DNA of 64,000 nt from an uncultured Sunxiuqinia sp. Its GTDB lineage: Bacteria; Bacteroidota; Bacteroidia; Bacteroidales; Prolixibacteraceae. The translations under genes and the position numbers were made by a program. The stretch lies in assembly GCF_963678245.1 (NCBI RefSeq), contig NZ_OY782770.1, positions 806,001-870,000 on the forward strand, read 5' to 3'. The notes under the pieces are model-generated. The model made no database searches and was not told the origin of the DNA. It worked only from the letters and a program-made list of their open reading frames with translations. This document shows positions 2,596 to 51,150 of this stretch, one piece after another (position 1 is the stretch's first letter; each line of letters starts with the position of its first letter).

Positions 2596-5500
2596 TTAGA
2601 AATTCAGGTTAAAACCAAATTTCACACTACGAGGAATTACAGCTTTTGCATAATCAACCCCTTGAAATGCTTCCTCATAAGAATAAGCAAATTCAGGATC
2701 AAGCCCTAAGTAGTCGGTCCAGGTAAATAGGTTTTCACCGGTGACATAGATTTTTCCTGATCGGAAGAATTTAAGGAATGTTTGATCAAATTCGTAGGCA
2801 AGAGTCACATACTTGAGTTTTAAGTATGAAGCATCTTCGATCCAACGAGACGAAAACGCATTATTGTTCATTGGGTCGCCATACACAGCCTTTGGAATAT
2901 CAGTATTCTGTCCATCTAACTGCCAACGATTTATAGCAGCCCGAGACTGGTTACTGAAGTTATCCAAAGCTTCGATTGAACGACGAGTGGCATTGTATGC
3001 CTCATTTCCTGATGAGTAAGTAAACTCTGCCGATATCGATAAATTTTTGTAGCGGATATAGGAATAAAAACCACCAAAGAAATCGGGAGTAGCAGACCCC
3101 AGAATTTGCTTATCTTCTTCGCCAATCTTTCCGTCGTTATTTACATCTTCGTAGCGCACATCTCCGGCTTCGTAGTTAATTCCTCTCCAGTCTTTCAGAT
3201 TGGCAGCTGTTGCTTGAGCCTGTGAAGCAAAAATTCCTTCAGCTTTATAGCCGTAGAAACTATAAGTATCTTCTCCTATTTTGGTCATAATCTCAGCTCC
3301 ATCGGGCAAATCCATTATTTGTTCTGAAACAGTTCCTAATGATTTTACTTCATTTGTGAGTGTTGAAATATTACCTCCAACAATCCACTCAAAGCTTTTG
3401 CTTTTCAATAATGATGCTGATAGTTCAGCTTCAATTCCTGAGTTTGCAATTTCAGCAGAATTATCGTAGTAAGTTGGAGAGCCAAAAACAGAAGATACCG
3501 GCTGAGCAAATAACACATCGGTTGAAGTGGCATTGAAATAGTTCACTCCTAAATCAACTCTGTTTTTCAATACCGAAAGCTCAACACCCAAATCCAGTTG
3601 TTTTGTGGTTTCCCATTTCAAATTTGTGTTCGGAATATTTGACCGTACAATGCCAGACAACACCAAAAACGGTGTGCTCTGGTAGTAGTTTTTACCATAG
3701 TTTGAAGAAAACCGGCTGTTACCTGTTAATCCGTATTCGGCTCTGAAATCCAACTTGTTTATGAAAGTTGAATTTTCAAGACTCTCCAAGTGTTTCGCCA
3801 TAAACGTTAATCCTGCTGAAGGAAAAACACCTAATCTGGAAGCATCTACTCCTGATGACGAAGTTCCGTCTACGGCAACATTTACTGACGCTCGTAGTAA
3901 GTTGTTCATGGTATAATCTCCATGAGCATACATATTCATCCAGTTCCATTCATTGATGTAACCGAAGAATTTGGTCGTACCACTTTCAACAAAGTTTAAT
4001 GTTCTATAAAAGTCGTTGGCCGTATTGTATCCGGCTCCCCCATCAAATTCTTTACTGGTAGTTAACATTTGTAAGCCACCATACATATTCAGCAAATTTC
4101 CTGAATCAAGCACTTTTTTGTATTTCGCATTCAGGTTATAGTACATATTTTTCACTTCTCCAGCCCCTGAACGCACGGTATTCTCTGCCAATCCGTTGTT
4201 CATTGCAACAATCGTGTTACTACTACGTCCCGGGATAAAGATATTTTCCTGATCATAGTTGTAAAATAAGCCAATTGTTCCTGACAACAAAAGGTCAGGC
4301 GTAACTTCATAATTAGCGCCAAACCGGATATTAACATTATGCTGTCTGGTATTAGCTGCCAGTGTATTTGCGATAGCAACCGGGTTACTTACACCGTAAC
4401 GGGCAATATCATACTCAGCCAATATACTTCCATTCGGATCTTTTCTATACGGACTAAGCAATGGCATTTTACTGTAAGCAACTAAAACAGGGTTGGTTTC
4501 TTTAATCAAACCTTGTTCTTGCAAATCGGCCTGCATATAGGCCAATCCAATACTTGCCAATAACTCTAACTTACGATTAACGTTGATACTGGTATTAATT
4601 TGAGTATGATAACGATCGCGTTTCGTATTGTCAATCACGCCACCTTCATTCATATAACCTAGCGAGATATCATATTTTGCAACAGCATCGCCACCTTCTA
4701 CCCTCAACACATTATTTGAGACTACGGAAGGAGAATAAACTTCATCCTGCCAGTCGGTTTTATTGTTGTACAAGTAGTTGTAGTAATTGTCCGGATCGTC
4801 AACCAAAAATGGAAAATCACCAATCAGGTCAGCCATATTGGCATAATAAGTTAAGCCAACATCGGTTAAGTATGACTTATATTCATCTCCATTCATTACC
4901 GGAATTTGCTGATCATTCCAGCTTAAACCGAACTGGGAAGTTAAGCTAATTTGTGTTTCAAGTTTATCTGACGCTGATACTCCGTTGGTTTCGATCAAAA
5001 TGACCCCATTCGCGGCCATCGATCCGTAAATAGAAGCTTCAGCCCCCTTTAGAACAGTGATATTCTGAATGTCAGAAACATTTAATCCGTTAAAAATTCC
5101 ACGAGAGTATCCCCCAATAATTGGAGATTCTTCGGTATCGGGCAAATAAGGAATGCCATTAACCAAGATGAGTGGCATATTTTTTCCTACCAGCGAGCGT
5201 ACTCCCCGAATATTCAAATAGGAACCTTCACCAGGCATTCCACTTTTGTTGATTACACGCAAACCTGATACTTCTCCCTGCAACGCGTTTTCAATGGTGT
5301 GAACCTGATCCAAATCCTTTGCTCCAATATTCTTTGCAGCAGACGTTTGTGCCGACTTGGTTAACTTTGTATGCGGAAAAACCAAATCTTCGTTGTACTT
5401 CGGTTTTGCCATATCTACCAGTACAATCCGAACATCAGTCCGCCCCAATAATGGCTGGGACAAATCGTAGAATCCCTGGGCTGAAACTGTTAGAATTCCA

Positions 5501-5721: not shown

Positions 5722-7439
5722 TAATAATTATTTTCAGTGGGTCGCAGTGTCCAACAGTAAAGCTGGTATCTACCTTTTGTATTTCCGCTGGCAGCAATTG
5801 CTGCTATATCATTACTTGCCACTTTAATTTTAATTGGTTGTAATTCGGTTCCCGTAATGGTTACAATTCCTATTTCTGCGCCATCACAATCGTAATACTT
5901 CGCCCTGTTTGTTACCGAACCCCAATCTGCCGGAACATATCCTTCAGGGAAGCCATTACCTGTGCGGTCGTAGTGAATGTTAGGGTTCACATTATCATTA
6001 ACCAACTCATCATTAAAATAAATCTGAAAGGTATGAGGGAACTTATTCGACTTAAAGCCCATACTAAAACTATATTCACCCGGAGGAACCATCACCACTG
6101 CAACAGTGCCATCTTCCTTCAAAGATATACCTGTTAATTCAACAGAACAGACACTTTCATTAGCCTTCGCTTCGTCGGTAGGCCATGCCCGCACTGTTTT
6201 ATAGGGTACAAATGGCCAGGGTCCCAGCGGACCGAACCCGCCGTCGTCCACAATGGAAATATCGCCGAGTCCTTCCCATTTGTAGTATTCTTCTTTTTCT
6301 GTTTCGTTACAATATTCCCAAATATAGAATCGATTTTTAATTCGATAGACGACAACATTATTCGGAATTTTTAAGGCTGTCGTGTAATAGGCTACCCCAT
6401 TACTCAGGGTTACCGGACTACTTGTATTTACTTTCTGTACAGTAGGTCGCCACTGAACTCCAGGAGTTGAAGCAGATTCGCCCTCAATATAACCGCTAAC
6501 AGAATAGAGATCTTCGGTACCGTCCAACTGCTCAGGAGTTAACATACTGCTATAAAATGCGGACTTAATAATAAATTGCTCAAATTTTAAGCTGTCATTC
6601 GCATTTGGCTCACGGTTCAATGCATCCCGAACATCCTGATAAGCCTTATCCAGCGCTCCCTTTACAAGTGTGTTATTGGGAACTAACACCGTAGATGAGA
6701 AAAACTCTGATCGCATATTCCAAGAGTCGGAACCGCCGGAATCGTAACGATCCATTAATAAGTTTTTCGACACAAATACCGAATCGTACACGGTATTTCC
6801 GGTATTGTCAACACCTACCGGGATGCTGTTTTCCCGATCGAATGCACTTTCTTCATATTCAAAAACTAAATCTTTAAACATACTATACTCATCGCCAAGC
6901 TCCGTCAAAAACTCGTACAATGATTTAGGAGCATAAATTGCATCACTCATCACATACACAAACCCATTGTCTACCTGAATGATTTTGGAGATTCTCGAGT
7001 TAGCAATGAAATACTCTGTTGTACTGGCTGTTTTCTCTACCGAAACCTCAAGATACTTTCCATTCCACATCTTGATTGACAGACCATCAACCAGTTTGGT
7101 TGGTGTAAATGCTAAATCACTAACGCAAGTGTTTGCAAAAAAGTTAGCATTTTCAATTTGAGCTCCACTCATTACACTGTTTGAGTAAACCAAAACAGTA
7201 AATAGTTGATCTTTTGTCTCCAACTTCGTATAAACATCCTGCTCCTCGAATAGTGTCGATATGGAGCTCAAGTCGGAATTCGTCTGTATGTATTCTTCGG
7301 CCGACATATCCACCACCTCAACGATGTCGCTATCTACCGTTTTACTGCCTGGCTCATAGTGCTCATCCCACTTCTCTGTACAAGAAAAGGCAAACAGCAT
7401 GGTTACCGCGGCTATTGCATATATATATCTTCTTTTCAT
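5721..7439 (-). CDS. FAS1-domain surface lipoprotein with C-terminal jelly-roll-like region
   Basis: I chose the start at 7439 because MKRRYIYAIAAVTMLFAFSC is a textbook lipoprotein signal; an ATG 24 codons upstream would bury it. The N-terminal half has one or two fasciclin-like folds (SISTLFEEQDVYTKLETKDQ, LFTVLVYSNSVMSG, DNGFVYVMSDAIYAPKS). The C-terminal third (GTVAVVMVPPGEYSFSMGF ... TITGTELQPIKIKVASND) looks like a beta-sandwich carbohydrate-binding module. Proteins of this design are frequent in Bacteroidota glycan loci and are probably surface glycan-binding or adhesion proteins; no enzymatic motif is visible. It lies between another FAS1 gene and susC in the operon. Confidence 0.82.
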   Translation of the reverse strand: MKRRYIYAIAAVTMLFAFSCTEKWDEHYEPGSKTVDSDIVEVVDMSAEEYIQTNSDLSSISTLFEEQDVYTKLETKDQLFTVLVYSNSVMSGAQIENANFFANTCVSDLAFTPTKLVDGLSIKMWNGKYLEVSVEKTASTTEYFIANSRISKIIQVDNGFVYVMSDAIYAPKSLYEFLTELGDEYSMFKDLVFEYEESAFDRENSIPVGVDNTGNTVYDSVFVSKNLLMDRYDSGGSDSWNMRSEFFSSTVLVPNNTLVKGALDKAYQDVRDALNREPNANDSLKFEQFIIKSAFYSSMLTPEQLDGTEDLYSVSGYIEGESASTPGVQWRPTVQKVNTSSPVTLSNGVAYYTTALKIPNNVVVYRIKNRFYIWEYCNETEKEEYYKWEGLGDISIVDDGGFGPLGPWPFVPYKTVRAWPTDEAKANESVCSVELTGISLKEDGTVAVVMVPPGEYSFSMGFKSNKFPHTFQIYFNDELVNDNVNPNIHYDRTGNGFPEGYVPADWGSVTNRAKYYDCDGAEIGIVTITGTELQPIKIKVASNDIAAIAASGNTKGRYQLYCWTLRPTENNY

Positions 7440-7540
7440 CTCATTATAATTTAAGGTTTTCAAAAGCACTCGATGGAAATTGCTTATTGCCATCCTTCTG
7501 TGTGTAAACATTTTTAGATGCTCGTTTCATAACCTATACT

Positions 7541-44292: not shown

Positions 44293-45945
44293 ATGAAAGA
44301 AGAAAGAAAATTATTAACGATACCTGCCATGTTGCAGTCCAGTTTTCGGAAGTATGCTGATCGCAACTCGCTCTCGTTCGTGGGTGACGAAAAAAAAACA
44401 TATCGTCAACTTCAGAATGAGGTCGAGAAATTAGGAATTTACTTAAGGGAACTTGGCGTTGAAAGGGGAACAAAAGTTGCCATCCTAAGTACAAACATGC
44501 CTAACTGGGGGGTTGCCTATCTGGCCATTGCAGCTGTTGGTGGCGTTGTCGTTCCTATCCTACCCGATTTTCATACAAAAGAAGTTAGCAATATTCTGCA
44601 ACATGCTGAAGTGGAGCTTGTTTTCGTTTCTGTAAACCTGATCAACAAATTGAATACCGAAGAGTATCCAATGCTAAAGATCATCCATATTGAAACACTG
44701 AAAGAACAGCACGCTGAGGATTATCCCAATGCTGAAATTGAGCGAGACCAGCAGTTTCATTATGAGCCGGTTGAAGAGAAAGATTTACTTTCGATCATAT
44801 ACACGTCCGGAACAACTGGAACCTCAAAAGGAGTCATGCTGACCCATCGAAACATTGTATGGACAGCTAAGCAAAGTATCACTTTTCAACATATCGATTC
44901 GAAAGACCGGTTTTTATCCGTTCTTCCGCTTTCACATACTTTCGAAAATACATTGGGACTGATTTTCCCATTGACATATGGGGCATCGGTTTTTTACATG
45001 AAGAAACCCCCTACAGCCTCTGTTTTAATGCCGGCCCTAACCGAAGTGAAACCCACTATCATGTTGGTGGTGCCACTAATCATTGAAAAGATTTATAAGG
45101 GCAAAATATTACCTCAAATAAATAGTAAATCAATCACACGAAATCTGTACAAAATTCGTCCTTTCCAAAAGATATTGAGCCGCATTGCCGGTAAAAAATT
45201 ATTGGATACATTTGGTGGTGAGTTAAAGTTTTTTGGTATTGGCGGCGCAAAGCTCGACAATCAAGTTGAACGCTTTATGATGGATGCAAAATTCCCATTG
45301 GCGATTGGCTATGGCTTAACCGAGACTTCACCATTATTGGCGGGTGCTGTGGGCGATAATGTTCGCTATTTGTCAACCGGAGTGCCACTAGAAGGCGTTG
45401 AATTGCGAATTGCAAATGCAGATCCTGTAACTGGCGAAGGAGAAGTTCAGGCAAGAGGAGCTAATGTAATGAAAGGCTACTACAAACAGCCTGATTTGAC
45501 CAAGGATGTATTTTCGGATGATGGCTGGTTTCGTACAGGTGATTTAGGAAAATTTGATCGCTCCGGATTTTTATACATCAAAGGGCGTATCAAAAATATG
45601 ATTGTTGGTGCCAGTGGGGAAAATATTTATCCGGAAGAAATAGAATCGGTTATTAATCGGATGGAGTACGTTCTTGAGTCGCTTGTTATTGAGCAAAAAG
45701 GCCGGCTGGTGGCCATGGTTCATTTAAACATGGAAGAGATAGAACAGCGAGTGCGAAACATGAAGTCGTTACGAGATGAAGCAGTCAGCAAAATGAACTC
45801 ACGGGTTGATGACATATTAAACGAGATTCAACAAAAAGTGAATGATGAAGTGAATAAGTTCTCTCGGGTTCAGCAGGTTGTATTACAGCCCGTTCCTTTT
45901 GAGAAAACACCTACTCTTAAAATTAAACGTTTCTTGTACTACTAG
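44293..45945 (+). CDS. Long-chain acyl-CoA synthetase (AMP-forming)
   Basis: The start at 44293 (MKEERKLLTIPAMLQ) is set by the promoter just upstream, giving 550 residues. The adenylate-forming motifs are all present: IYTSGTTGTSKGVMLTHRN (P-loop), GYGLTETSPLLAG, DDGWFRTGDLGKFDRSGFLYIKGR and the final lysine region PTLKIKRF. It activates fatty acids to acyl-CoA through an acyl-adenylate. Members with this length and a PLSHTFENTLG-type segment belong to the FadD/FAA1 group. No beta-oxidation gene is adjacent, so it may serve in membrane lipid recycling as well as catabolism. Confidence 0.92.
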   Translation: MKEERKLLTIPAMLQSSFRKYADRNSLSFVGDEKKTYRQLQNEVEKLGIYLRELGVERGTKVAILSTNMPNWGVAYLAIAAVGGVVVPILPDFHTKEVSNILQHAEVELVFVSVNLINKLNTEEYPMLKIIHIETLKEQHAEDYPNAEIERDQQFHYEPVEEKDLLSIIYTSGTTGTSKGVMLTHRNIVWTAKQSITFQHIDSKDRFLSVLPLSHTFENTLGLIFPLTYGASVFYMKKPPTASVLMPALTEVKPTIMLVVPLIIEKIYKGKILPQINSKSITRNLYKIRPFQKILSRIAGKKLLDTFGGELKFFGIGGAKLDNQVERFMMDAKFPLAIGYGLTETSPLLAGAVGDNVRYLSTGVPLEGVELRIANADPVTGEGEVQARGANVMKGYYKQPDLTKDVFSDDGWFRTGDLGKFDRSGFLYIKGRIKNMIVGASGENIYPEEIESVINRMEYVLESLVIEQKGRLVAMVHLNMEEIEQRVRNMKSLRDEAVSKMNSRVDDILNEIQQKVNDEVNKFSRVQQVVLQPVPFEKTPTLKIKRFLYY

Positions 45946-45975
45946 TGTTAAATGGTAGAACTTGATAAGACATTG

Positions 45976-46010
45976 ATTCCTAGCTATGTAATAGCTAGGA
46001 ATTATTATTT
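45976..46010 (+). terminator. Intrinsic terminator of the acyl-CoA synthetase gene
   Basis: A perfect 12-base stem, ATTCCTAGCTAT (45976-45987) with ATAGCTAGGAAT (45991-46002), has a 3-base loop and is followed by TATTATTT. Confidence 0.8.
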
Positions 46011-46135
46011 AGCACTCTATAAAAGATACCCCTTTTTTGCTCACCAAATATTGTCTTTTCAACTATTTTAAACACTTTGTGATACTTCTGTGATAAACAC
46101 ATCATACCTTTCGCCTGTTCTAAAAAAAAACGGTT

Positions 46136-46792
46136 ATGGGAAAAGCGTTAATCATTGAGGACGATAAAGATATCTCCGAACTTATTTCCATTCATTTAGC
46201 AGACATGAACATGGAAGTGGATCAAGCATTCAATGGCAAAGACGGCCTGATGAAAGCGATGAATAACCACTACCGGTTTATCCTGTTAGATATTCGGCTA
46301 CCCGAGCTCGACGGGTTCGTGATTTGCAAGCGACTGCGGATGGAAAAGAACAACACCCCCATTTTAATGATTACCTCCAAATCGGAGGAGATTGATAAAG
46401 TATTGGGACTAGAAATGGGAATCGACGACTACATTTCAAAGCCATTCGGAATTCGTGAGTTATTAGCACGGGTGAAAGTTGTTTTAGGGCGAACAGAACG
46501 CATGCCACAGGAAGAAAATCAGGATGAGGTTGAAATACGTTGCGAACAGTTATATATTAATGTAGGTATGCGTATTGTCGAAATGAACGGAGAGCGTATT
46601 GAACTGTCCCCAAAAGAGTTTGATTTAAAAGAGTGGGAGATTTATGCCCATAATGATCATCAAAGTACGGGATTGGGGCTAGCCATTGTCAAAAAGATAG
46701 TTGAACTGCATAACTCCACAATTCAGGTATTCAGCCAATTTGGCAAAGGAACCACCTTCGTTTTTGAACTTCCGGTAGCTAAACTTACCTAA
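46136..46792 (+). CDS. Chimeric response regulator fused to the tail of a histidine kinase
   Basis: Residues 1-120 are a complete OmpR-type receiver: acidic pair in IIEDDKD, phospho-acceptor D52 in [14 protein letters not shown]80 in LMITSK and K102 in YISKPFG. The winged-helix domain begins ([19 protein letters not shown]) but stops at residue 164, where all related proteins continue through the recognition helix. Residues 165-176 ([12 protein letters not shown]) instead match the LysM glucosaminidase gene downstream, and residues 177-218 ([16 protein letters not shown]...[11 protein letters not shown]) are the end of a kinase ATPase domain. An adjacent regulator-kinase pair has thus collapsed into one in-frame chimera. 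It cannot bind DNA or phosphorylate; the receiver might still accept phosphate, for instance as a sink. Whether it is expressed is unknown. Confidence 0.9.
46616..46664 (+). repeat. Inverted copy of a LysM-gene segment (copy A)
   Basis: These 49 bases match 48261-48309 on the opposite strand at 47 positions; the differences are C for T at 46649 and 46658. The first 33 bases are identical. The block sits exactly between the regulator part and the kinase part of the chimera. Confidence 0.95.
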
Positions 46793-47020
46793 TTTATTGA
46801 TGAAACGAGCATGTAAAAATAGTCACACACAGAAGTATTCTTATTTAAAGCGAGTTCCATATGTTGCAAAAAATAAACAATTATAAACACATGAAAAAAT
46901 GATTTTTTTGTAATCCTGTAGTGATACTTACTATGGATCTTTGACCGAACACCGATATTAACTCTCGGAATGATCTTTGAGTAGAAAATAGGGGCCGATA
47001 AATGTAAAAAACAAGATTTG

Positions 47021-47027
47021 AAAGGAG
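47021..47027 (+). promoter_or_regulatory. Strong Shine-Dalgarno sequence of the Msr gene
   Basis: AAAGGAG stands 7 bases before the ATG at 47035. Such sequences are uncommon in this phylum, and other genes in the window lack them. A 9-base direct repeat (ATCTTTGA with a preceding G, at 46936 and 46972) lies farther upstream and might be a regulator site. Confidence 0.5.
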
Positions 47028-47034
47028 AACGATT

Positions 47035-47982
47035 ATGAAACGAATGATGTATTTATTGCTGTTTAGCCTGATCGCACTAGCAGGGTGTGCCCAAAACCAG
47101 AAGCAGAAACAAGATTCACCGAACTATCGTCCGCTAACTGCTGAAGAAGAAATGGTGATTATTCATAAGGGAACAGAACGTCCGTTTACCGGAAAATACG
47201 ATAAGTTTTACGAAGAAGGTACCTACGTTTGCAAACGATGTGGTACTGAGTTGTATCACTCATCAGACAAGTTTGATTCAGATTGCGGATGGCCTAGTTT
47301 TGATGACGAAATCGAGGGCGCAGTGAAACGAACACCTGATCCTGACGGCATGCGCACAGAGATCACCTGCAATAACTGCGGTGCTCACTTAGGGCATGTT
47401 TTTTTAAACGAGGGATTTACCAACAAGAATACCCGGCATTGCGTCAATTCCATTTCCTTGGAATTTATTCCGGCTGGTACTTCGAGAAAAGCTACAAGCG
47501 ACACAGCGTATTTTGCAGGAGGTTGCTTTTGGGGAGTCGAGTATTATCTGGAACAAGAGCCGGGAGTATCGTCTGTTGAGTCTGGCTACATGGGAGGGAA
47601 TAAGAATAATCCGTCTTACGAGGATGTAAGCTATCGACGTACCGGCCATGCGGAGGTGGTTCGTGTGATTTTCGATCCGTCGGAAACGAATTATGAAAAC
47701 TTAACAAAATTGTTCTTTGAAATTCACGACCCCACGCAGGTAAACCGCCAGGGACCTGACGTGGGTTTGCAGTATCGGTCAGAAATATTTTTCCGTACAG
47801 TGCAACAAAAGCAGATCGCCGAAAAGCTAATTGGCATGTTGGAATTAAAGGGATATGACGTGTCTACCCGAGTAACACCGGCGGCCAATTTTTGGCAAGC
47901 CGAAGCATACCATCAGGATTATTACGAGAAGAACGGCGGCACCCCCTATTGCCACAAGCGAGTGAATCGATTTTCCCGATAA
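47035..47982 (+). CDS. Methionine sulfoxide reductase B-A fusion lipoprotein
   Basis: The 315-residue protein starts with a lipoprotein signal (LIALAGC). MsrB comes first (about 30-150), with the zinc cysteines in CKRCGTELY and CNNCGAHLGHV and the catalytic cysteine in TRHCVNSISLEF. MsrA follows (about 155-310), with AYFAGGCFWGVEYYLEQEPG holding the catalytic cysteine and SGYMGG. The two domains reduce the R and S forms of methionine sulfoxide, respectively. Membrane anchoring suggests repair of oxidised envelope proteins. The order B-A is the less common one. A strong ribosome-binding site suggests high translation. Confidence 0.95.
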   Translation: MKRMMYLLLFSLIALAGCAQNQKQKQDSPNYRPLTAEEEMVIIHKGTERPFTGKYDKFYEEGTYVCKRCGTELYHSSDKFDSDCGWPSFDDEIEGAVKRTPDPDGMRTEITCNNCGAHLGHVFLNEGFTNKNTRHCVNSISLEFIPAGTSRKATSDTAYFAGGCFWGVEYYLEQEPGVSSVESGYMGGNKNNPSYEDVSYRRTGHAEVVRVIFDPSETNYENLTKLFFEIHDPTQVNRQGPDVGLQYRSEIFFRTVQQKQIAEKLIGMLELKGYDVSTRVTPAANFWQAEAYHQDYYEKNGGTPYCHKRVNRFSR

Positions 47983-48030
47983 TGCTTTTTAAAAATTTGG
48001 GGAGATGACGCTAGAATACAGCCTAAACAG

Positions 48031-48981
48031 CTAGCGGCGAGGTTTTTTCTTACGCAAGTATACAAAAGAGCCAACTTTGGGGCGTTCGCCGGGCTTCAGC
48101 CGATTTAACCGATATAAGCGTTTCAACTTTACGCCATAGCGTTGAGAGATAAAATGCATCGTATCATCCGACTCTAAACGATGAGTTTTATGGGATTTTT
48201 TTGCCTTTCTGTGCTTTGGCTCGACATATAAAATCTCGTTTTCCTGGGGTTGTTGACCTTTTTGATAATCATTATAGGCATAAATCTCCCACTCTTTTAA
48301 ATCAAACTCCTGAGCAATTTTCTGAAATGTATCGCCTTTTTTAACAACAATCGATCGCAAGTCATTTCTTAAAACAACTTTTCGAGCTTGATATGGATTA
48401 ATAAGATTTCGACCGTCGACAGGTTGATTAGATTGTTGAATACGTGCTATTTGAGACTTGTCCAGACCTTCGTCATACAAAAAAAGCTTATGATCTTCGA
48501 TAATCTTAATCAAAAGATTAGCATAATGAGGATTCGTGGCATAACCAGCCTTTTTCAATCCTCGAGCCCAACCTTTATAATCAGTCAGATCTAATGTAAA
48601 AAGACCAGCATAACGCGAATTCAGTGTCAAAAAATCAGAATGATCGACAAACGATGCTTCTACTGAACGATACTTCCGGAAGCATTCTCCCTTGGCGTCG
48701 TCATCATGATAAACACGCTTTCCTCTCCAGCTACTTTTGCACTTAATCCCAAAATGATTATTGCTTTTTACACTAAGCTCTGAGTTTCCATCCCCAGATT
48801 CCAAACAAGCTTGGGCCAAAGTGATACTTGCGGGAACTCCGGTTCGTATCATTTCGCTTACGGCAAGCGGCGCATATTTTTCAATGTATTCTTCACGGGT
48901 ATTTATCCGCTGACCAAATCCAATTAAAGTGAGAGTAAAAAAAAAGATACTTAGCGCAATCCTTCGGGTCATAGAAATCAA
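48031..48981 (-). CDS. N-acetylglucosaminidase with LysM repeats
   Basis: The 316-residue protein has a signal peptide (MTRRIALSIFFFTL...GFGQ), a glucosaminidase domain of the FlgJ/LytG type (VPASITLAQACLESGDGNSE with the catalytic Glu, NNHFGIKCKSSWRG, YATNPHYANLLIKIIED), and two LysM modules near residues 210-260 (VKKGDTFQKIAQEFDLKEW) and 270-312 (MHFISQRYGVKLKRLYRLN). It cleaves the glycan strands of peptidoglycan, and the LysM modules bind the wall. The first LysM module is the source, or sister, of the 49-base segment found in the chimeric regulator gene 1.6 kb away. Confidence 0.93.
   Translation of the reverse strand: MISMTRRIALSIFFFTLTLIGFGQRINTREEYIEKYAPLAVSEMIRTGVPASITLAQACLESGDGNSELSVKSNNHFGIKCKSSWRGKRVYHDDDAKGECFRKYRSVEASFVDHSDFLTLNSRYAGLFTLDLTDYKGWARGLKKAGYATNPHYANLLIKIIEDHKLFLYDEGLDKSQIARIQQSNQPVDGRNLINPYQARKVVLRNDLRSIVVKKGDTFQKIAQEFDLKEWEIYAYNDYQKGQQPQENEILYVEPKHRKAKKSHKTHRLESDDTMHFISQRYGVKLKRLYRLNRLKPGERPKVGSFVYLRKKKPRR
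48261..48309 (-). repeat. LysM-gene segment matching the chimera junction (copy B)
   Basis: This segment encodes [16 protein letters not shown] in the first LysM module and is a natural part of that fold (GDT...IA...N). It is therefore the likely donor; the inverted copy at 46616-46664 is the acceptor. Confidence 0.95.
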
Positions 48982-50331: not shown

Positions 50332-51150
50332 TTAGTACTGTTCGCGTTCGTTTGGAAAACTAACAGCTTTTACATCTTCAATATAACTACCAACTGCACC
50401 TTTTATTTCGGCAGCTAAATTATGATAACGACGCAAAAAGCGAGGCGAAAACTCCTGGGTAATTCCCAACATGTCATGAATTACTAAAACTTGTCCGTCT
50501 ACACCATTACCCGCTCCAATTCCAATAATTGGAATTTTTACGGCCTCAGCAACTACTTTGCCTAACTTTGCAGGAATTTTCTCTAAAACAATTGCAAAAC
50601 AGCCGGCTTCTTCTAGCAACTGGGCATCGGAAACAAGTTTAGCTGCTTCTTCATCCTGTTTCGCACGAACCGTATAAGTCCCATATTTATGAATCGATTG
50701 AGGCATCAGCCCCAAGTGTCCCATCACTGGAATTCCGGCTGACAAAATCCGGTCGATTGATTCAATAACTTCCTTTCCTCCTTCCAGTTTTACAGCATCT
50801 GCAGCAGTTTCTTTCATAATACGAATGGCAGAGCTCAAAGCCTCCTTACTATTCCCTTGATAGGTTCCGAATGGCATGTCCACAACGACCAATGATCTGT
50901 TGGCTGCTTTAACCACAGATGTTCCCATAAAAATCATCTGATCAAGTGTAATTGGCAAAGTCGTCTCGTTCCCCATCATCACATTTGAAGCCGAGTCTCC
51001 AACTAAGATCACGTCAATTCCGGCTTCATCTGCTAATTTTGCCATGCTGTAGTCGTAGCTTGTCAACATGGATATTTTTTCGCCTTTCAACTTCATCTCA
51101 GAAAGGACGTGGGTGGTTACCCGCTTTATTTCTTTTTTATGTACTGACAT
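50332..51150 (-). CDS. panB: 3-methyl-2-oxobutanoate hydroxymethyltransferase
   Basis: The 272-residue protein shows [40 protein letters not shown] (magnesium aspartate), [14 protein letters not shown] and [19 protein letters not shown], all PanB landmarks. It makes ketopantoate from 2-oxoisovalerate and methylenetetrahydrofolate, the first step of pantothenate and coenzyme A synthesis. No other pan gene is near. It is divergent from dnaK across 278 bases that must carry both promoters. Confidence 0.97.

Follow-up and report, generated by a model that had tools for sequence, protein, structure and literature searches.

A regulator–kinase fusion in a Sunxiuqinia genome, probably formed by template switching through the opposite strand of a nearby LysM gene

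The window discussed here is a stretch of 64,000 nucleotides from an uncultured Sunxiuqinia sp. (contig NZ_OY782770.1, positions 806,001 to 870,000 of the forward strand), and all coordinates below count from its first base. It contains an open reading frame that begins as a response regulator and ends as a histidine kinase. Pfam matches Response_reg to residues 5–114 of the encoded protein and HATPase_c to residues 128–215 (profile positions 23–110). The point at which regulator and kinase meet is occupied by a short tract that also occurs, inverted, in a glucosaminidase-LysM gene on the opposite strand. The genes and features are:

46136..46792, plus strand: fused reading frame of 218 codons (response-regulator receiver, LysM-derived tract, C-terminal end of a histidine kinase)
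46136..46615, plus strand: regulator part, 160 codons (receiver, linker and start of the DNA-binding domain)
46616..46627, plus strand: left joint, 12 nt (GAGTTTGATTTA) common to the regulator and the LysM gene
46628..46645, plus strand: 18 nt that match the opposite strand of the LysM gene and neither flank
46646..46648, plus strand: right joint, GCC, common to the LysM gene and the kinase of the relative G004
46649..46792, plus strand: kinase part, last 47 codons and stop, including both bases first counted as mismatches
47035..47982, plus strand: methionine sulfoxide reductase gene (PMSR and SelR domains)
48031..48981, minus strand: glucosaminidase-LysM gene containing the donor
48277..48309, minus strand: donor inside the LysM gene at its maximal extent (minimal extent 48280–48297)

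The initial annotation of this region drew attention to an inverted match between positions 46616–46664 and 48261–48309, with 47 of 49 bases in agreement. A repeat search reproduced this pair (49 nt, 47/49 identities, 96% complementary) as one of three inverted pairs in the whole window at a seed of 14 and a minimum of 24 nt; the other two measure 38 nt at 71% and 25 nt at 80%. When 81 bases around the joint were searched against the organism's own genome, these two places alone matched at E ≤ 0.001, and a query of 111 bases added a single match to its kinase part (query positions 81–107), outside the tract. The 18-mer that fits the LysM gene alone has two exact matches in a scan of the 64-kb window allowing up to three mismatches, against a mean of 0.08 in shuffled sequence. 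Among seven genomes of the genus, the full joint is matched only in the genome that carries it. An Rfam search over 45900–48400 gave no match at E ≤ 1, and thus points to no known RNA family at this locus.

We searched the fused protein against 61 genomes, comprising its own and those of 60 relatives. The closest regulator belongs to G004, a genome of the same genus, in which the matching kinase end appears as a separate match 1.5 kb further on. The order of genes in G004 is that of the window: regulator, kinase, methionine sulfoxide reductase, LysM gene, cytidine deaminase and further genes. At the opposite end, sequence alignable to G004 stops at 46074, 62 bases upstream of the regulator. 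An intact pair is also present in three more members of the genus (G006, G001 and G002) and in three members of the family (G014, G035 and G016). Since the matches listed for G003 (71% complete) and G005 (99%), which also belong to the genus, include nothing closer than distant kinase paralogues, the pair seems dispensable in this group. No orthologue or second intact copy of the pair occurs among the own-genome matches listed (with the fused protein as query, 49 of 125 candidates were scored), where the best other matches reach 34% for the kinase and 38% for the regulator.

Comparison with this intact relative, as the initial annotation had proposed, revealed the unbroken pair in G004 and, in the window, a deletion with an inverted LysM-derived tract at the joint. 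Both joints were read by base-level alignment against the regulator, kinase and LysM gene of G004. In the coordinates of the reversed G004 locus, the match to window positions 46074–46627 ends at 4608 and that to 46646–46805 begins at 6161. The window therefore lacks 1,552 nt that G004 has between the two joints, a figure that takes the place of the earlier estimate of roughly 1 kb or more. The lost segment corresponds to nearly all of the DNA-binding domain of the regulator and to the kinase except for its last 47 residues. The remaining regulator part shares 92% amino acid identity with G004 over query residues 1–165.

The kinase sequence fits from 46649 onward. The 49-nt match has its two mismatches at 46649 and 46658, both of them C bases of CAT codons in the G004 kinase, and later mutation is ruled out as their source because G004 has the same bases there. 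Since these bases are native kinase sequence, the copied tract must be shorter than first thought: judged from this alignment, the LysM-derived tract is at least 18 nt (46628–46645) and at most 33 nt (46616–46648), in place of the approximately 40 bases of the initial annotation. Its claim of microhomology at both joints survives in altered form. The left joint does lie in the shared EFDL codons, whereas the right joint is the GCC at 46646–46648, and the GAT-ATCAAA to which that role had been assigned is kinase sequence. Neither match is exceptional in itself. The 12 nt at the left joint are matched at only 11 of 12 positions by the G004 regulator, and matches of this length are not unusual for a region of this size: between the regulator-kinase region of G004 and the rest of the 13-kb locus there are one exact inverted and five direct 12-mer pairs, overlapping pairs being counted separately. 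The right-hand match of 3 nt is within what chance often gives. The reading frames of regulator, LysM gene and kinase coincide across both joints, in agreement with the earlier description of an in-frame copy. At the left joint the frame is kept because the EFDL codons are shared; at the right joint the chance of keeping it was one in three. Joints, donor, orientation, frame and the loss relative to G004 can all be read directly from these alignments.

The direction of transfer follows from the relatives. The 33-nt stretch is identical in the LysM gene of G004, which has 96% amino acid identity to the LysM gene of the window, and is homologous in the LysM genes of five other genus members. It was found at the corresponding place in none of seven intact regulators and none of seven intact kinases. 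Since these bases are kept in the LysM genes of the genus and absent from the regulators and kinases, the LysM gene is the donor. Pfam domains and the G004 alignment likewise bear out the view that one copy is at home in the LysM gene and the other sits where the regulator breaks off and the kinase begins.

We turned to the question as to what remains of the signalling pair. In G004, Pfam places Trans_reg_C at residues 152–228 of the regulator, and HisKA and HATPase_c at residues 268–334 and 382–489 of the kinase. Besides the receiver, the fusion retains 13 of 77 residues in the DNA-binding domain and 44 of 108 in HATPase_c, with nothing left of HisKA; the surviving part of the kinase is residues 446–492. 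DNA binding and kinase activity of such a protein are not plausible. With partial DNA-binding and ATPase domains and no HisKA domain, the protein of 218 residues is most likely no more than a dead remnant of a signalling pair that would have been lost.

Substitution patterns are compatible with this assignment. The regulator part carries six changes specific to the window at sites that are invariant in six other sequences, and G004 carries none of the corresponding kind. Polarised with five outgroups (G006, G001, G002, G035 and G016), synonymous and nonsynonymous changes in the regulator part number 15/11 on the window lineage against 13/1 on the G004 lineage, with 4/1 undecided (Fisher p = 0.030). 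A recount with the three outgroups from the genus (G006, G001 and G002) gives 13/10 against 13/2 (p = 0.077). The regulator and kinase of G014 were compared but left out of these counts, and the G001 regulator has one gap codon. The kinase tail shows no signal of relaxation (4/1 in the window, 4/2 in G004). In control genes the corresponding counts for window and G004 are 16/6 and 14/6 for MsrAB (two outgroups) and 14/6 and 22/4 for LysM (five outgroups); against the control genes of the same genome, the regulator part shows no significant difference (p = 0.30). The dN/dS of the regulator part relative to G004 is 0.084, compared to 0.024–0.124 in six control genes, and the fused frame is open. 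These numbers suggest a modest signal of relaxed constraint in the regulator part. Recent loss of function would fit this signal, which does not prove it. A side observation concerns panB (50332–51150), whose dS to G004 is 1.35, compared to 0.22–0.33 in five other control genes, 0.42 in the regulator part and 0.55 in the kinase part, a pattern that recombinational replacement of panB in one lineage could produce.

How the regulator gene came to be joined to the end of the kinase can be approached from the structure of the joints. The tract is identical to a template elsewhere, sequence is shared at both switch points, and the arrangement before the event is available from G004. In the gene order of G004, some 3.1 kb separate the donor from the regulator joint and some 1.5 kb from the kinase joint. 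These features indicate that a single rearrangement by template switching through the opposite strand of the LysM gene probably produced the fusion. From the joint structure we infer one event at a replication fork, with DNA synthesis that changed templates. The nascent strand would have broken off within the regulator at GAGTTTGATTTA, paired with the identical 12 nt that the LysM gene offers on its opposite strand, copied 18–21 nt more from there and re-annealed at GCC in the kinase, with loss of the 1,552 nt. Read on the other strand, the same product would arise by passage from kinase to LysM gene to regulator. In four-point notation the switch points follow the order 1-4-3-2, or 3-2-1-4 on the other strand. 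In its essentials, an inverted templated insertion combined with a deletion, the event is thus the one that the initial annotation had described, and the alignment with G004 confirms its nature.

Several other origins were considered. We rejected end joining by Ku: a search for this protein found no match in seven genomes of the genus (one of them 71% complete), and among 14 control genomes it matched only that of B. subtilis. In view of this result, classical end joining is unlikely, and the joint is better explained by template switching or by a single-stranded splint. A splint would be a single strand from the LysM gene that annealed to both flanks and was sealed in, without any polymerase switching at a fork. 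Pairing could involve 12 nt on the regulator side and up to 20 imperfectly matched nt on the kinase side, as in short-patch illegitimate recombination. Over the 20 bases that start with GCC, the LysM gene agrees with the G004 kinase at 15 positions and with the window copy at 17; both differences between window and G004 kinase in this interval (46652 and 46657) carry the LysM base, as partial mismatch repair might leave them. Two agreeing bases are weak evidence, given a divergence of about 13% in the kinase tail. Harms et al. reportedly described (PNAS, 2016) short-patch double illegitimate recombination in Acinetobacter baylyi, in which a short intragenomic segment is substituted. The sequence outcome in the window is compatible with such a substitution in a bacterium, but the loss in that class is said to be short, and 1.55 kb is long by comparison. 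We consider a splint unlikely, if worth keeping in mind.

The joint could also be an artefact of assembly or library preparation. Inverted chimeras of nearby sequence are a known type of sequencing artefact, and the joint is judged from the assembly alone; on the other hand, it lies inside a contig of 1.5 Mb, a chimeric read would have to switch twice in one place, and six regulator changes at otherwise invariant sites would be left unexplained, modest as that signal is. We regard an artefact as very improbable. Even less credible is a history in two independent steps, with a plain deletion followed by a LysM patch at the scar. There is only one genome to judge from, but the tract lies exactly between the joints and has sequence in common with each flank, and two events at one point are less parsimonious than one. 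Chance resemblance, or a tract that is a normal part of an unrelated regulator, draws on the occurrence of EFDL at this place in both the regulator and the LysM families. This explanation is refuted by 33 identical bases, 18 of which fit neither flank, by the shuffle mean for the 18-mer, and by the KEWEIYA segment being present in none of the seven intact regulators compared.

Template switching, which we favor, has documented counterparts, and MMBIR-type switching is the best fit. The sections of PMC2621351 that set out the MMBIR/FoSTeS model describe joints with short stretches of common sequence, deletions interspersed with inverted segments, and a second inverted switch that restores a viable arrangement; they also mention earlier proposals of such switching to account for amplification in E. 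coli. Joint microhomology and the combination of deletion and inverted piece are common to that model and the window, but here there is one short tract, copied over a distance of kilobases and read from natural genome sequence alone. The part of PMC7954356 on short-range template switches in great apes gives 1-4-3-2 and 3-2-1-4 as the majority patterns of its four-point model. The order of switch points in the window is formally the same, but those switches are local and confined to one fork, and the present donor lies about 1.5 and 3.1 kb off. In quasipalindrome-associated template switching in E. coli, as outlined in PMC7202029, the polymerase also copies an inverted partner. In that case a nearby imperfect palindrome is perfected; here the donor is distant from both joints, the sequence between the joints was deleted, and two remote flanks were joined. 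Templated inverted insertions at breaks in yeast, as summarised in PMC11724301, are similarly short (most tracts about 5–34 bp) and use microhomology. One end of the yeast insertions is captured by NHEJ or alt-EJ; the seven genomes of the present genus gave no Ku match.

Downstream of the fused frame lies a second anomaly, with a further copy elsewhere in the window:

46800..46898, plus strand: interspersed element of about 99 nt, an insertion relative to G004, outside the joint
7433–7530, minus strand: second, partial copy of the element (39 nt at 87% and a weak piece of 19 nt)

The element starts seven bases past the stop codon of the fused frame and 152 bp from the joint. It is absent at this place in G004, and by locus coordinates the corresponding spacers in G006 and G001 are short too. 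At E values up to 10, it has at least 43 matches in its own genome and at least 45 in G004, many of them weak. We examined 39 copies, namely the window copy, 20 of the 43 own matches and 18 of the 45 in G004. Its end frequently falls right at the ATGAAA with which a downstream gene starts; the frame from that ATG is open to the end of the fetched stretch in 28 of the 39 copies, the window copy not being one of them. Many copies have an ORF of their own of about 28 codons, which runs from the element's ATGAAA to a stop just a few bases ahead of the next ATG. A permissive screen assigned this ORF to 35/39 copies, with at least three wrong calls (L106, L108 and L129) and several shortened ones. 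Two of the encoded peptides gave no match in Pfam or NCBIfam. The site at rimO is unoccupied in the own genome; in G004 it holds a copy with ATGAAA on either side, which looks like insertion at a start codon with target duplication.

The right end of the element forms a hairpin (46858–46893 in the window) in which the start codon ATG pairs with an upstream CAT. All eight pairs are present in 23 of the 39 copies, in several types (CATGTGTT/AACACATG, CATATGAT/ATCATATG and others), and the window copy has one mismatch. Relatives contribute more types among the matches listed (CATACGAT/ATCGTATG, CATCTTAT/ATAAGATG). The hairpin pattern has matches in 25 of the 61 genomes, and a reversed control has none. 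A search of 37 genomes found Y1 transposase (PF01797) in 32, the own genome among them; G022 and G007, in which it is absent, have three and one matches to the hairpin pattern. The element may be either a mobile element of the IS200/IS605 type or a translated leader. A single mutagenic episode could be imagined in which the element, or its single-stranded movement, would have exposed or stalled the DNA here, so that switch and insertion coincided and the in-frame chimera was then kept as a receiver-only phosphate sink. We find this combination highly doubtful.

The neighborhood of the pair gives a hint of its former role. A fused MsrAB gene is kept beside the kinase-regulator pair in G001, G004 and G006. 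G002 has the pair, with MsrB and MsrA as separate matches, and G003 and G005 have neither the pair nor a fused MsrAB among the matches listed. Since the pair adjoins the methionine sulfoxide reductase gene in G004, G006 and G001, this co-occurrence hints that it may regulate methionine sulfoxide repair, and that control of this gene may be the role that was lost.

To our knowledge, template-switch scars with donors at kilobase range have been described mostly in eukaryotes or in laboratory selections. A literature search by titles and abstract openings found no bacterial case of exactly this form, which is not to claim that none is in print. The copying error is known in kind. Here, base resolution is reached for the state before the event, for the donor and for both joints in a naturally occurring bacterial genome that has no Ku match, and the frame is kept at both joints of the scar. 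The example also illustrates that mismatches at such joints can be native bases of the flank, and that the true length of a copied tract is fixed only by an intact relative. For annotation, a reading frame that resembles a receiver-ATPase fusion is in this organism most likely what is left of a signalling pair that was lost.
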